Below are positions 1 to 7,265 of a stretch of 9,178 nt of DNA, in pieces. Source of the stretch: Acidobacteriota bacterium. GTDB taxonomy: Bacteria > Acidobacteriota > Vicinamibacteria > Vicinamibacterales > UBA2999. The notes under the pieces were generated by a model. The model worked only from the letters and a program-made list of their open reading frames with translations. It made no database searches and was not told the DNA's origin. The stretch covers positions 1 to 9,178 of the forward strand of contig JACCSI010000412.1 of the NCBI GenBank assembly GCA_013813075.1. The letters are read 5' to 3'. The position numbers were made by a program, and so were the translations under genes. The stretch's first letter is position 1. Every line of letters starts with the position of its first letter.

Positions 1-891
1 CGCATACTCCTCACGGAAGCGTTCGCGCAGCCACGTGCTCACGAGGTTCAGGCTGAACGTCATCAGGAAGAGCAGCATGCCCACCGCGAAAATGGTCCGG
101 TACTCGAGCGTGCCCTGCGGCGTGTCACCGAGGCTGACCTGCACGATATAGGCGGTCATGGTTTCAATCGGGACCAGCGGGTTGGCCGTCAGCCGCGGCT
201 GCTGGCCCGCGGCAATGGCCACAATCATGGTTTCTCCAATCGCGCGCGACACCGCCAGGATGGACGCCGCGGTAATGCCCGAGAACGCGGCCGGCACGAC
301 GACGCTCAGCGACGTCTGCATGCGCGTCGCCCCGAGCGCATACGCGCCTTCGCGCAGCCCGCGCGGCACCGCGCGCATCGCGTCCTCAGAGAGTGACGAC
401 ACCAGCGGCAAGATCATGATGCCCATCACAATGCCGGGGCTCAGCGCGTTGAAGCCGGCGAGGCCGGGAATCAGTGGCTGCAGTAACGGCGTGACGAACA
501 TCAGCGCGAAGTAGCCGTAAACCACCGTCGGCACGCCCGCCAGAATCTCGAGGATCGGTTTGACAATGCGCCGCAGCCCCTCGGGCGCATACTCACTGAG
601 ATAGATCGCGCTCAACAGGCCCATGGGCAGGGCGACGACCATGGCGATTGACGACACCAGCACCGTGCCGGCGACCAGCGGCAGCACGCCGAATCGCTTG
701 TTCGCAAAGAGGGGTGTCCACTCGGTGCCCGTGAGGAACTCGACCAGCGAGACCTCTCGCAGAAACCCGAACGTCTCGAACGCGAGCACCATGATGATGC
801 CCGCCGTGGTCAGGACCGAGACGACTGCACAAAGGAACAGCAGCCACTCGACGACCCACTCGCTCGGCCGCTTAGTGCCGTTCTTTGGCAA
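1..891 (-). CDS. pstC: Phosphate ABC transporter permease PstC (3' end cut by window edge)
   Basis: PstC is one of the two inner-membrane permease subunits of the high-affinity PstSCAB phosphate importer. The reverse-strand frame gives 297 residues without a stop up to the edge, close to the usual ~300-320, so only a short C-terminus is missing. Visible hallmarks are a first hydrophobic segment at about residues 13-40, the family-typical [11 protein letters not shown] then [30 protein letters not shown], and [12 protein letters not shown]. The ABC-permease EAA-type loop is [12 protein letters not shown] (about 180-191), followed by [14 protein letters not shown]. The only usable start ahead of the first membrane segment is TTG at 891, inside the 3' end of pstS, giving a 20-bp overlap and suggesting translational coupling; a stop lies upstream in frame near 907-909. 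pstA, pstB and phoU would be expected beyond position 1. Identity is secure; the TTG start is inferred. Confidence 0.95.
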
Positions 892-1909
892 GCAGCTGCT
901 CGATCGTCATGCCGATTTGAGAGTTCCCGTCACCAAACAGCGTTCCGGGCCGGCGGGTCTTGAAATGCTGTCCGACGAGGCGATACCCCTCGTCCCCGAG
1001 CTGCACGTAGCCGACTTCCTCGGCCAGCGTGGCGGCGTTCGCGATATAAAAATCCATAAAGCGCTGGATTTCGGGTCGCGCCAGCGCCTTCTCGCTTACG
1101 TACACGAACAACGGCCGTGCCAGTGGTTGGTAGGTGCCCGTCCGAATGGTGTCGAAGCTCGGCACGATCGCGCCGTCGCCATCCTCCGCCTTCTTGTTAT
1201 CAACTGGCACCACTTTCAACCGTTGCTGGTTCTCCCGGAAATAGGCAAACGGCAGGAAACCAAGCGCCAACTCGTCGCTGGACACTCCTTGCACGAGGAC
1301 ATTGTCATCTTCGCTGGCGGTAAAGTCGCCGCGGCTGGCGCCCTCCTTGCCCACGATCGCTTCGGTGAAGTAGTCGTACGTCCCCGAGTCCACGCCCGCG
1401 CCGTAGAGATGGATCTCGCGGTCCGGCCAGCCCTTGCGCACCTGGTTCCAGCGCATGACCTTGCGCTGGGCGTCGGGCGCCCAGAGTGCACGCAATTCGT
1501 CAACGGTGATGTCATTGATCCACGTCGCCTTGGGACTGACGACCACGGCGATACCATCGTAGGCAATCGGTACTTCGAAGAAATTGATGCCGCTGGCCTT
1601 GCACGCCTCGATCTCCGTGGGCCGAATCGGCCGCGACGCATCGTTGATGTCGGTCTCACCGCGGCAGAACTTCTGAAAGCCGCCGCCAGTTCCGGATTGA
1701 CCGACGGTGACGCGGACGCCACGTTCGGCCTTCTGGAATTCTTCGGCCACGGCTTCGCTGACCACGAAGACCGTGCTCGAGCCGTCGACCTTGATATCAG
1801 ACGCGGCCGTCCCGTCTGCGTTTGGGGAGGTTGATCCGGCGCCCCCACACGCGGTCGACAGGGCGAAGGCGGCCAGGATCCCCAGGCGATGAAGCAATGA
1901 CGCACTCAT
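872..1909 (-). CDS. pstS: Phosphate-binding protein PstS (PstS/SphX type)
   Basis: This is the extracytoplasmic phosphate receptor that feeds PstC/PstA. The 345-residue product starts with a signal sequence (hydrophobic ILAAFAL, residues 11-17) ending at LSTAC-GG, so Cys21 is a likely lipid-attachment site, although Ser at -3 is an imperfect lipobox. The mature part has ligand-binding signatures: DGSSTVF (42-48), [18 protein letters not shown] (71-88) with NDASRPI after it, and [16 protein letters not shown] (170-185) followed by GKEGASR. These resemble the SphX-like branch more than E. coli PstS. I chose ATG 1909 because it immediately precedes the signal peptide, although a GGAGG lies only 1 nt upstream, which is unusually close; TTG at 1897 (codon 5) would sit 13 nt from it. 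It is preceded by a Pho box and followed by an overlapping pstC. The frame continues open upstream of 1909, but that part covers the promoter and the ppx end and is not expected to be translated. Confidence 0.96.
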
Positions 1910-1947: not shown

Positions 1948-1980
1948 GGAGTTGTAAATTTAGTGTAACGTCGGTGACAA
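1948..1980 (-). promoter_or_regulatory. Pho box (three 11-bp units) upstream of pstS
   Basis: Read on the minus strand, three consecutive 11-mers line up: TTGTCACCGAC (1980-1970), GTTACACTAAA (1969-1959) and TTTACAACTCC (1958-1948). The last two share TTACA exactly 11 bp apart, and the first contains TGTCAC, as in the E. coli half-site CTGTCAY. PhoB/PhoP-family regulators are known to bind tandem half-sites at this 11-bp pitch. The element ends about 38 bp before the pstS ATG, a sensible distance for an activator site overlapping the -35 region. No convincing -10 hexamer is obvious. The PhoB-like regulator encoded at 6428-7150 is the natural candidate ligand; that link is inferred. Confidence 0.75.
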
Positions 1981-4575: not shown

Positions 4576-5085
4576 ATGGCCGCCACCATCGAGCTTTACC
4601 TCGTTCGTCATGCAGTTGCTGCCGAGAGAGGGCCGAACTATCCCGACGACCGCCAGCGCCCGCTGACCAGCGAGGGCGTCTCTCGTTTCAAACAAAGCGT
4701 CGAGGGGTTGAAGGGATTTGACGTCAAACTCGAGCTGATCGTGACAAGTCCGTTGGTGCGTGCGACTCATACCGCGGAACTGCTGGCGGCGGGCATCGGC
4801 GGCAAGCCGCGGCTTGAGTCGCTCGATGCGCTCGCGCCGGGCGGACGCATGGCACACGTGCTCGAGGCGGTGACGAAATATTCGAAACGGGCCAGTCACA
4901 TCGCCCTCGTCGGTCATGAACCAGACCTTGGCGAGCTGGCCGCGCGATTGCTGCGCTCGCGTGGTACGGTCGAGTTCAAGAAGGGCGCGGTGTGCTGTCT
5001 CGAACTTGATGGCGCGATGCCCAACGGCCCGGGCACGCTGAAGTGGCTGCTGCCGCCGCGGGCGCTTCGTAAGATCCGCAAATGA
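4576..5085 (+). CDS. sixA: SixA-type phosphohistidine phosphatase
   Basis: Histidine-phosphatase superfamily member, 169 residues, matching the compact SixA size. SixA removes phosphate from phosphohistidine of signalling or PTS proteins. The catalytic LVRHAVA motif (9-15, RH at 11-12) is at the N-terminus, followed by RPLTSEG (28-34), SPLVRATHTAELL (58-70) supplying the conserved Arg, and the second catalytic histidine in LVGHEPDLGELA (111-122). Start ATG 4576 is 13 bp after the CHAD stop with no clear ribosome site; the stop overlaps the next start as ATGA. Genes of this family are often found beside CHAD or polyP genes, so the substrate here could be a non-canonical phosphoprotein or small phosphate ester; the sequence does not tell. 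Family assignment is firm; the substrate is unknown. Confidence 0.9.
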   Translation: MAATIELYLVRHAVAAERGPNYPDDRQRPLTSEGVSRFKQSVEGLKGFDVKLELIVTSPLVRATHTAELLAAGIGGKPRLESLDALAPGGRMAHVLEAVTKYSKRASHIALVGHEPDLGELAARLLRSRGTVEFKKGAVCCLELDGAMPNGPGTLKWLLPPRALRKIRK

Positions 5086-5978
5086 CCCGCGCGGTCGTGG
5101 TCATCAACCCGCTGTCGGGACACGGCCGCTACGAACAGCAAATCCACGAGCACGCGCGTCTGGCGTGCGACGTCCTTGCCGGGCACCACATCGAAGCGAC
5201 GGTCCGGCCGACGACCAAGGGTGGCGACGCCCGCGCGTTTGCGAAAGAGGCGGCCGACGCCGGCTGCGAGCTGGTAGTGGCGTGGGGCGGTGATGGCACC
5301 GTCAACGAAGCGGCCGGCGCGCTCGTGCACACCGACGTGGTGCTTGGCATCGTGCCAGCCGGCTCCGGTAATGGCCTTGCATCGGACTTGGGCATCCCGT
5401 CCGACCCCCACGCGGCGCTGACGCTTGCGGCGGCCGGGCGCACCCTGGCGATTGATGCCGGTCAGGTCGACGATTGCCTGTTCTTCAACATTGCTGGGAT
5501 CGGCATCGACGCCGTCATCGCCGCGCGCTTCGCCGAACGCGGGTTGCGCCGCCGTGGACTTGCTGGATATCTGACGCTGAGCGGCGCCGAGTTGATGCGC
5601 TACCGCTCGCAGGTCTACACGCTGACGCTGGACGGGGAGCCTGCAGAGCAGCGTGCCATGCTCGTGGCCGTCGCCAATGGGCGACAGTACGGCAACCGCC
5701 TGTTCATCGCGCCAGGCGCGCAGCTTGACGATGGCCTGTTTGAAGTTGTCGTGGTCGAAGAGTTGTCGTTGCTGGCGATCGCGTGGCGCTTGCCGTCGCT
5801 CTTCCGTGGAACGCTGCAACCCGGGCGCGGCGTCTCGATGACTGCCGCGAAGACGGTCCGCATCAAATCCTCCGGCCCGATTCCATATCACGTAGACGGA
5901 GAGCCGCGGCTAGGGAGTGACGAGCTGTCGATCGTGATTCACCCCGGTGCATTGCGGGTGCGCGCTCCGGCACGTTAG
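5082..5978 (+). CDS. Diacylglycerol/sphingosine kinase-like lipid kinase (YegS/LCB5 type)
   Basis: ATP-dependent kinase of the DAGK_cat fold, 298 residues, normal for soluble bacterial lipid kinases (YegS, DgkB, BmrU). It phosphorylates diacylglycerol or a related lipid at the inner membrane face. Visible motifs are VVINPLSGHGR (6-16), the nucleotide loop VVAWGGDGTVNEAAGAL (65-81) and IVPAGSGNGLASDLGIP (90-106). The C-terminal lid domain has FNIAGIGIDA (135-144), VANGRQYGNRLFIAPGAQL (197-215), DDGLFEVVVVE (216-226) and HVDGEP (270-275). The GSGNGLA variant, instead of GTGNDFA, points to the LCB5/YegS-like side. Start ATG 5082 overlaps the sixA stop by four bases (ATGA), a classic coupling arrangement. 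The lipid substrate cannot be read from sequence. Confidence 0.92.
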   Translation: MTRAVVVINPLSGHGRYEQQIHEHARLACDVLAGHHIEATVRPTTKGGDARAFAKEAADAGCELVVAWGGDGTVNEAAGALVHTDVVLGIVPAGSGNGLASDLGIPSDPHAALTLAAAGRTLAIDAGQVDDCLFFNIAGIGIDAVIAARFAERGLRRRGLAGYLTLSGAELMRYRSQVYTLTLDGEPAEQRAMLVAVANGRQYGNRLFIAPGAQLDDGLFEVVVVEELSLLAIAWRLPSLFRGTLQPGRGVSMTAAKTVRIKSSGPIPYHVDGEPRLGSDELSIVIHPGALRVRAPAR

Positions 5979-6006
5979 GCTTATCAAGGCGCGCGACCGG
6001 CAATCA

Positions 6007-6039
6007 GCAAAAAGTCTCGGATTTCCGGCCTGTTTTTGC
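6007..6039. repeat. Perfect 7-bp inverted repeat GCAAAAA / TTTTTGC
   Basis: GCAAAAA (6007-6013) and TTTTTGC (6033-6039) are exact reverse complements, separated by a 19-nt loop. It lies 28 bp after the lipid-kinase stop and just upstream of the second Pho-box-like element. The A and T runs stand out in this GC-rich DNA. It may end the CHAD-sixA-kinase transcript or form an AT-rich UP-like element for the next promoter. The stem is AT-rich and no separate U-tract follows, so terminator function is uncertain. Confidence 0.4.
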
Positions 6040-6053
6040 ATTTGCCCAAATCC

Positions 6054-6075
6054 GTTACGCCGAATTTACAGCGTC
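6054..6075 (+). promoter_or_regulatory. Second Pho-box-like element, upstream of the 71-aa gene
   Basis: Two 11-bp units, GTTACGCCGAA (6054-6064) and TTTACAGCGTC (6065-6075), repeat TTAC at an 11-bp pitch. The 17-bp core GTTACGCCGAATTTACA matches the pstS element GTTACACTAAATTTACA at 14 of 17 positions, all three differences being transitions. The core ends 36 bp before the ATG at 6107, against 43 bp for pstS, so the architecture is alike. A third upstream unit comparable to TTGTCAC is not present. A -10 hexamer is not obvious. Confidence 0.6.
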
Positions 6076-6091
6076 GCAAGCGTCGATTGGT

Positions 6092-6097
6092 GAAGGA
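6092..6097 (+). promoter_or_regulatory. Ribosome binding site for the 71-aa gene
   Basis: GAAGGA ends 9 nt before ATG 6107 and 12 nt before the adjacent ATG 6110. This favours the first ATG and supports translation of this small frame over the overlapping GTG frame at 6100, which would be only 2 nt away. Confidence 0.55.
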
Positions 6098-6106
6098 TCG
6101 TGAACG

Positions 6107-6322
6107 ATGATGGCCTTCTCCAAGAGTATTCGCAAGGCGGATCGCATCCGCCGATACATCATTCAGACGACCGACGCCGGCTGGGAAGTCCGAGAAGAAC
6201 AGGACCGCGAGGTCGTGCGCCAAGCCTGGTATCAGGATTGGCACCGGGTCGAGCGTGCGCGGCGCGCGTTCGTCATCTCGATGACCTCGTTGCGCAACGA
6301 GGGCTGGACGGAAACCGACTAA
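6107..6322 (+). CDS. Small charged protein of unknown function (71 aa)
   Basis: I do not recognise this protein. It has 71 residues, rich in Arg, Glu and Asp, with four tryptophans in a repeating aromatic pattern (GWEVREE, AWYQDWHRVERARR, EGWTETD). There is no signal peptide, membrane segment or cysteine. The alternating pattern RRYIIQTTDAGWEVR looks like a beta hairpin, followed by an amphipathic helix from about residue 36 to 64 (WYQDWHRVERARRAF onward), so a small folded cytoplasmic domain is plausible. Support for a real gene: a good ribosome site, G/C-rich third positions, and a promoter region with a Pho-box-like element almost matching that of pstS. It follows the lipid-kinase gene by 128 bp and converges on the response regulator. 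A role in phosphate starvation is inferred from the promoter only. Confidence 0.75.
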   Translation: MMAFSKSIRKADRIRRYIIQTTDAGWEVREEQDREVVRQAWYQDWHRVERARRAFVISMTSLRNEGWTETD

Positions 6323-6427: not shown

Positions 6428-7150
6428 TTATTCGACGAAGCGGTAGCCCAGGCCGACAACCGTTTCAATCTGGCGGCCTGCCGCTTTGAGCTTACTGCGG
6501 AGGCGTCCGACGTGGACGTCCACCGATCGCGTTTCGATGAAACGCTCGTAGCCCCATACGCGTTCAAGCAGTCGATCACGCGAGAGCACACGGTTGCGGT
6601 TGTCGACCAGATAGCGGAGCAGTTCGAACTCGCGCCGTGTCAACCGAATCGACTCGCCGTCAACCGTAATGTTCACGGCATCGAAGTCCGCCATCAAGTG
6701 CTGCCCGCGATAGACGGCCGGCGCTTCGGGTTCGTCACGGCGGCGTCGCAGCACGGCACGGACGCGCGCCGCCAGCTCGCGGGTGCTGAAGGGCTTGGTC
6801 ACGTAGTCGTCGGCCCCGGCGTCGAGCCCGACCACGCGATCGCTTTCCGTCGAGCGCGCGGTCAGCATGATGATCGGGACGTGCCGCGTTGCTGGCCGCG
6901 ACCGAAGCAGCCGGCACACCTCGAGACCGCTGACTGCGGGGAGATTGAGGTCGAGCAGGATGACCTCTGGTGGGCGTTCCGCGGCGGCTTTCAGCGCCGC
7001 GTCGCCGCTGTAGGCAATCTCGACGTCGATATCTCCGCCCCGCTCGAGCGTGTGCTTGATAAGGTCGGCGATATCTCGTTCGTCTTCGACGACCAGGACA
7101 CGTGGGCGGTTTTGCGTGCGCGGTGCACCGGGACGGGTGCGGCTGGTCAC
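6428..7150 (-). CDS. PhoB/OmpR-family response regulator
   Basis: Two-domain DNA-binding response regulator. Receiver domain: RVLVVEDERD (17-26) supplies the acidic pocket, phosphoacceptor Asp67 in ILLDLNLP (64-71), Thr97 in IIMLTARS, and Lys119 in DDYVTKPF. The C-terminal winged helix (about 150-240) has LTRREFELLRYLV, RDRLLERVWGY, TRSVDVHVGRLRSKL and ending GYRFVE. This is the OmpR/PhoB pattern and is PhoB-like in length (240 aa). Three in-frame starts exist: ATG 7228, ATG 7195 and GTG 7150. I prefer GTG 7150: GAGGGA lies 6 nt before it, codons upstream have unusual third-position A/T, and the product begins shortly before the receiver domain. No histidine kinase is next to it in this window. 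It lies downstream of glgC on the same strand. Regulation of the Pho boxes at 1948-1980 and 6054-6075 is inferred. Confidence 0.93.
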   Translation of the reverse strand: MTSRTRPGAPRTQNRPRVLVVEDERDIADLIKHTLERGGDIDVEIAYSGDAALKAAAERPPEVILLDLNLPAVSGLEVCRLLRSRPATRHVPIIMLTARSTESDRVVGLDAGADDYVTKPFSTRELAARVRAVLRRRRDEPEAPAVYRGQHLMADFDAVNITVDGESIRLTRREFELLRYLVDNRNRVLSRDRLLERVWGYERFIETRSVDVHVGRLRSKLKAAGRQIETVVGLGYRFVE

Positions 7151-7156
7151 CGCCGA

Positions 7157-7162
7157 TCCCTC
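7157..7162 (-). promoter_or_regulatory. Ribosome binding site deciding the regulator start
   Basis: Minus-strand GAGGGA is separated from GTG 7150 by 6 nt (TCGGCG). It is a better site than those in front of ATG 7195 (GGA at 4 nt) or ATG 7228 (GAGG only 3 nt away), and so supports the shorter 240-aa protein. Confidence 0.5.
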
Positions 7163-7236
7163 GGGAGAGGCGCTTTGAGCGCTGTTATGTTGCATCGATC
7201 CGTGACTCTCACGGTATCGAAACCGCATTTCCTCGC

Positions 7237-7265
7237 CGTGACGAAGCGGTTAAATGTTGGTTACA
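7237..7265 (-). promoter_or_regulatory. Degenerate three-unit 11-bp repeat upstream of the response regulator
   Basis: On the minus strand TGTAACC (7265-7259), TTTAACC (7254-7248) and CGTCACG (7243-7237) recur at an exact 11-bp pitch in the 45-bp gap after the glgC stop and into the regulator leader. The pitch and T-A-rich/CAC composition resemble the Pho boxes, but the core is TAACC instead of TTACA. If genuine, it would suggest autoregulation and would fit a transcript start downstream of ATG 7228, in line with the GTG 7150 start. Confidence 0.35.

Follow-up and report, generated by a model that had tools for sequence, protein, structure and literature searches.

A conserved Pho box precedes a gene for a small protein of predicted WGR-like fold, often convergent with phoB, in Vicinamibacterales

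We analyzed a stretch of DNA of 9,178 nucleotides (nt), hereafter the window, in which a gene for a 71-amino-acid (71-aa) protein of an unnamed family (6107..6322, + strand) lies behind a Pho box, GTTACGCCGAATTTACA (6054..6070, +). The box consists of the half-sites GTTACG and TTTACA at a pitch of 11 base pairs (bp). Because this conserved direct-repeat box resembles those of pstS and phoB, the gene is likely to be activated by PhoB in phosphate starvation, and it is very probably a phosphate-regulated member of the Pho regulon. The fuller reading, that a PhoB-activated phosphate-starvation gene encodes a small, presumably cytoplasmic regulatory protein with a predicted WGR-like fold, is the one that we favor as probable. 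The draft genome that has the window as one of its 759 contigs comprises 3,359,267 bases (84% complete), and both the lineage of the window and the names on its protein matches place it in the order Vicinamibacterales, phylum Acidobacteriota.

The sequence-only reading from which this work started had called the box a near copy of the one at pstS, and the comparison held. The phosphate-binding protein gene pstS (PBP_like_2; 872..1909, − strand) carries the box GTTACACTAAATTTACA (1953..1969, −), which shares 14 of 17 positions with that of the 71-aa gene; TTAC recurs at the 11-bp pitch in both (at 6055 and 6066 in the box of the 71-aa gene), and the distances from box to start codon are 36 nt for the 71-aa gene (ATG 6107) and 43 nt for pstS (ATG 1909). 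The box of phoB itself, GTAACCAACATTTAACC (7248..7264, −), has the same pitch and agrees with the box of the 71-aa gene at 9 of 17 positions. Perfect matches to GTTACN4AATTTACA occur twice in the whole draft genome, at pstS and at the 71-aa gene, both in the window; there was one further site at one mismatch and six at two, and a reversed control gave five in total at up to two mismatches. The pattern KTTACRNNNNDTTTACA gave two perfect and two one-mismatch matches in the same genome, against one in the control. One site with a single mismatch, on G000:C72, falls within an open reading frame (ORF), just 5' of an internal start of a protein that we named by eye as NmrA-like. According to PMC4415409, the PHO box in E. 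coli and Streptomyces is built of two direct-repeat units of 11 nt, in each of which seven positions are better conserved than the other four. The boxes analyzed here have the two 11-nt units in common with it, the box of the 71-aa gene being such a tandem pair, but they differ in the core, which reads GTTACA, TTTACA, GTAACC or TTAACA here and CTGTCAT or GTTCACC there.

Absence of the box before orthologues had been named as the observation that would count against regulation by phosphate, and this was not what we found. The promoter set comprised 56 distinct family genes, including second family matches in two genomes (G123 and G069) and one gene of uncertain start (L081), and each was scored for matches to TTACA-N6-TTACA (maximum 10) at the best placement within 200 bp. 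A score of at least 9/10 was reached by 39 of the 56, compared with 3 of 267 other ORF starts at the same loci and 15 of 5191 random windows. Only 0.2% of dinucleotide shuffles (n=5600) reached at least 9/10, and none reached 10. One of the three box-positive ORF starts (L011, 356 aa) sits at the position expected of pstS. We also built an independent matrix from 27 phoB and 19 pstS boxes (31 distinct 17-mers), and no others, so that family promoters stayed out of training. Against 15167 random windows, from which 320 windows holding training boxes had been excluded, 49, 47, 19 and 2 of the 56 family promoters exceeded the 95th, 99th, 99.5th and 99.9th percentiles, respectively. The 71-aa gene of the window scored 22.7, a value equalled or exceeded by 49 of the random windows. 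The 25 top-scoring random windows lay in L049 and L071 on the phoB side and in L011, L014 and L015 on the pstS side, and from their position they are probably further true phoB and pstS boxes.

The box was also present where the upstream neighbor of the family gene was glgC or a divergent gene in place of dagK. Since it is kept while the upstream flank varies, the box goes with the 71-aa family gene and not with a given upstream neighbor. Seven of the family genes lacking the box had no close phoB in the stretch examined. At four loci of one genus, g2 (L003, L024, L026 and L084; genomes G112, G109, G114 and G115), the first half-site is TTGTC, with TTTACA kept in the second, and two further g2 genomes (L002 and L035) retain TTAC in the first half-site.

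In these genomes pstS and phoB bear like motifs. For phoB, 31 sources gave 28 rows (three, L125, L146 and L159, were unparsed, and the window and L133 are identical), and a box with 11-bp pitch scoring at least 10/12, on a scale used without a shuffled control, stood before phoB in all 27 parsed genomes. In 15 of the 27 it reads GTAACCCA[GC]A[AT]TTAAC. This conserved box of its own suggests that phoB would be autoregulated. In many relatives the phoB box has a third half-site. For pstS, 19 of 30 loci had a box of at least 10/12; among the other 11, eight were anchored on the wrong ORF, and the three with the right anchor had scores of 9, 9 and 7. Many of the loci L086-L111 have, upstream of pstS, the box followed by GAAACTG...GCGAAAC repeats, perhaps weaker half-sites. 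Direct-repeat sites are common to winged-helix regulators, so the box might serve another regulator of the OmpR family that shares the motif, in which case the 71-aa gene would not be phosphate-regulated. We regard this as most improbable, given the like motifs at phoB and pstS and given that family genes accompany pst, PHO4, ppk and phoB genes.

The 39 box-bearing promoters also share a weakly conserved A..RAT, with 0.72, 0.54, 0.58 and 0.99 bit at offsets 40, 42, 43 and 44. These offsets played no part in selecting the rows, and motif columns outside the selection, offsets 7-11 as well as the −10, were conserved too. The element may function as a −10; in the window it is AAGGAT (6093..6098, +), 22 nt after the box. 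A scan of the window for the sigma-70 consensus found no match. The ribosome site that had been assigned to the gene, GAAGGA (6092-6097), overlaps this −10-like element, and because the element stands at a conserved distance from the box, we read GAAGGA as part of the promoter rather than as a Shine-Dalgarno sequence. With its ribosome site thus overlapped, the mRNA of the 71-aa gene may be nearly leaderless, to judge by position alone. From box to start codon the 39 promoters have a median distance of 48 nt (36-101), with 22 at 50 nt or less.

The gene downstream of the 71-aa gene encodes a PhoB-like response regulator with a receiver and a winged helix (6428..7228, −), so that the two genes are convergent. 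Among 193 genomes of the class, phoB, called at E≤1e-80, was found in 69 and the family gene in 54; 43 had both, 26 phoB alone, 11 the family gene alone and 113 neither (Fisher P 4e-15, uncorrected for kinship). With each genome represented by its best phoB match and its best family match, so that the second family matches of G123 and G069 dropped out, the two genes were tail-to-tail in 31 of the 43 genomes having both. The matches stood 4-118 nt apart, a distance that includes the stop codons, while the flank away from phoB was variable (dagK, glgC or a divergent gene). Thus, with the box conserved and the gene following phoB in both position and presence, the regulation that the sequence-only reading had proposed is well supported at the level of sequence. 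The frequent adjacency and the co-occurrence could also be taken to mean that the 71-aa protein is a dedicated feedback partner, a PhoB-induced protein that binds PhoB or its kinase and damps or sustains the signal, which would explain why the genes are adjacent. But convergent genes are not co-transcribed, which makes adjacency weak evidence of contact, the remaining 12 of the 43 pairs are not tail-to-tail neighbors (3 lie on different contigs), and the 26 genomes with phoB alone manage without such a partner; we consider this role rather unlikely.

Several arrangements away from phoB join the family gene to other phosphate genes. In L069, pstS-pstC-pstA-like genes stand 161 nt upstream of it and its box is weaker (8/10); in L016 it is followed by genes for DUF47 and a PHO4-family transporter, and in L019 it adjoins the polyphosphate kinase gene (ppk). 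In G144 (L126) the 71-aa gene and the box are both missing and dagK abuts phoB, as seen in a comparison that left out the unparsed L125. In L004 (G117; 6000-6300), a genome with no phoB at E≤1e-80, glgC follows closely after the family gene and the box still scores 9/10. Six genomes of the window's family that are at least 90% complete (G110, G113, G140, G141, G125 and G127) have no phoB match at E≤1e-60, and the PhoB-like regulator seems to have been lost in some lineages.

The protein contains 4 Trp and 12 Arg in its 71 residues, matching the Trp/Arg-rich composition first remarked on, and has a calculated isoelectric point of 9.5. It is not the orphan it was taken for. A sequence search returned 109 proteins, that of the window included, and of the 7998 candidates scored in a profile search, 5201 were family proteins at E≤0.01 (clustered at 90% identity); the relatives among the matches listed with names are hypothetical proteins. 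The 108 aligned members gave no convincing family in Pfam or NCBIfam, where no entry matched more than 5 members (best E 0.005 and 0.0032). In a sample of the phylum the family occurred in 19 of 396 genomes, all labelled as the window's own, its family or its order; within Acidobacteriota it is confined to one order among the genomes sampled. Seven residues (W26, D44, W45, H46, R47, V48 and E49) do not vary among the 108 members, and 14 pairs above 68% identity differ by 176, 134 and 392 substitutions at codon positions 1, 2 and 3, a pattern of an ORF under protein-level selection. A sequence search of solved structures gave 5 matches over 23-31 residues, 4 of them to small heat-shock proteins (best E 0.1), and a viral fold library gave no match at E≤0.001 (best 0.023). 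DWHRVE was not found in a literature search, in which WHRVER was met in three plant papers on heat-shock proteins.

This selection, with its invariant residues, also bears on whether the RNA could be the main product, a transcript that runs antisense into the 3' end of phoB and damps it, the small ORF being secondary. In 28 of the 31 convergent pairs the matches are no more than 50 nt apart, and between the 71-aa gene and phoB of the window a simple scan detected nothing terminator-like. However, the box is kept where the gene is not tail-to-tail with phoB (L016, L019 and L064), an Rfam scan of the window matched no family, and shuffling the intergenic RNA weakens its fold only a little (z −1.35). 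Together with the selection on the protein, these results make an antisense role very unlikely.

Two AlphaFold models (pLDDT 92.3 and 89.6) give a confident domain of four β-strands and an α-helix (ββββα). WGR domains (PF05406; PARP2, PARP3 and YehF) ranked first and third among the structural matches of one model and first to fourth in the other (2ra8 is presumably a WGR domain), and a PUR repeat (PURA, Borrelia Pur-alpha) was the first Foldseek row for both (8chw_A, E 0.37; 8cht_A, E 2.2). The element order of PUR repeats is ββββα, as in our models. The likeness to WGR domains thus lies in the predicted fold; WGR domains have a conserved Trp-Gly-Arg, whereas none of the 108 family members has the WGR motif, and identity with PF05406 by sequence was rejected for lack of a Pfam profile match. 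A protein of this fold could be a nucleic-acid-binding, WGR-type module that protects or marks DNA or RNA ends under phosphate scarcity, which we think unlikely.

The known protein most similar in kind is the intracellular small Pho-regulon protein YtfK. PMC6917717 describes YtfK (DUF1107, E. coli b4217) as a protein of about 8 kDa of the Pho regulon that is induced by phosphate starvation and triggers SpoT, and gives it as specific to gamma-proteobacteria. Its sequence is unrelated to the 71-aa family (hhalign Prob 0.2 over one column), and identity with YtfK by sequence was rejected, as PF06526 was unmatched in this genome and among the family-member matches.

By analogy with YtfK, and because the 71-aa protein appears to be PhoB-activated and is small, single-domain and invariant in one stretch at the start of its helix, we tentatively propose that it could be a starvation-induced small regulatory adaptor. 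Under low phosphate, phosphorylated PhoB would bind the two 11-bp repeats at the place of the −35, and RNA polymerase would start from the −10-like element, 22 nt past the box, giving a short, nearly leaderless mRNA. Through the invariant DWHRVE helix start and Trp26 and Arg29 of the sheet, the protein would then bind a partner, which might be a nucleic acid or else a protein acting in the phosphate or the stringent response, and so tune the starvation response, much as in E. coli, where SpoT is the target of PhoB-induced YtfK.

The other genes of the window are in order as follows. A pst permease gene (1..891, −), cut by the window end and named pstC-like by reading and position, is followed by pstS, then ppx/gppA (−), a CHAD gene (+), a histidine phosphatase gene (+) and a DagK/YegS-type lipid kinase gene (5082..5978, +), which lies upstream of the box of the 71-aa gene and is an inconstant neighbor of that gene across the order. 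Beyond phoB, a glgC-like gene (−) comes last.

Our literature searches found no described Pho box for Vicinamibacterales, and no paper in which acidobacteria, a Pho box and PhoB occurred together. The Pho box consensus suggested here for Vicinamibacterales would make the phosphate regulon of the order readable from sequence, and a family of over five thousand members from public genomes and metagenomes, nameless in the libraries searched, gains a testable role. We know of no WGR protein, and of no small protein of the Pho regulon, that acts as a dedicated effector or feedback arm of a phosphate response. It is conceivable, though we advance it with reserve, that in Vicinamibacterales phoB and the 71-aa gene make up a phosphate-response module of two genes, in which PhoB would drive itself, pst and a dedicated effector or feedback arm, a free-standing protein with a WGR fold but without the WGR motif.
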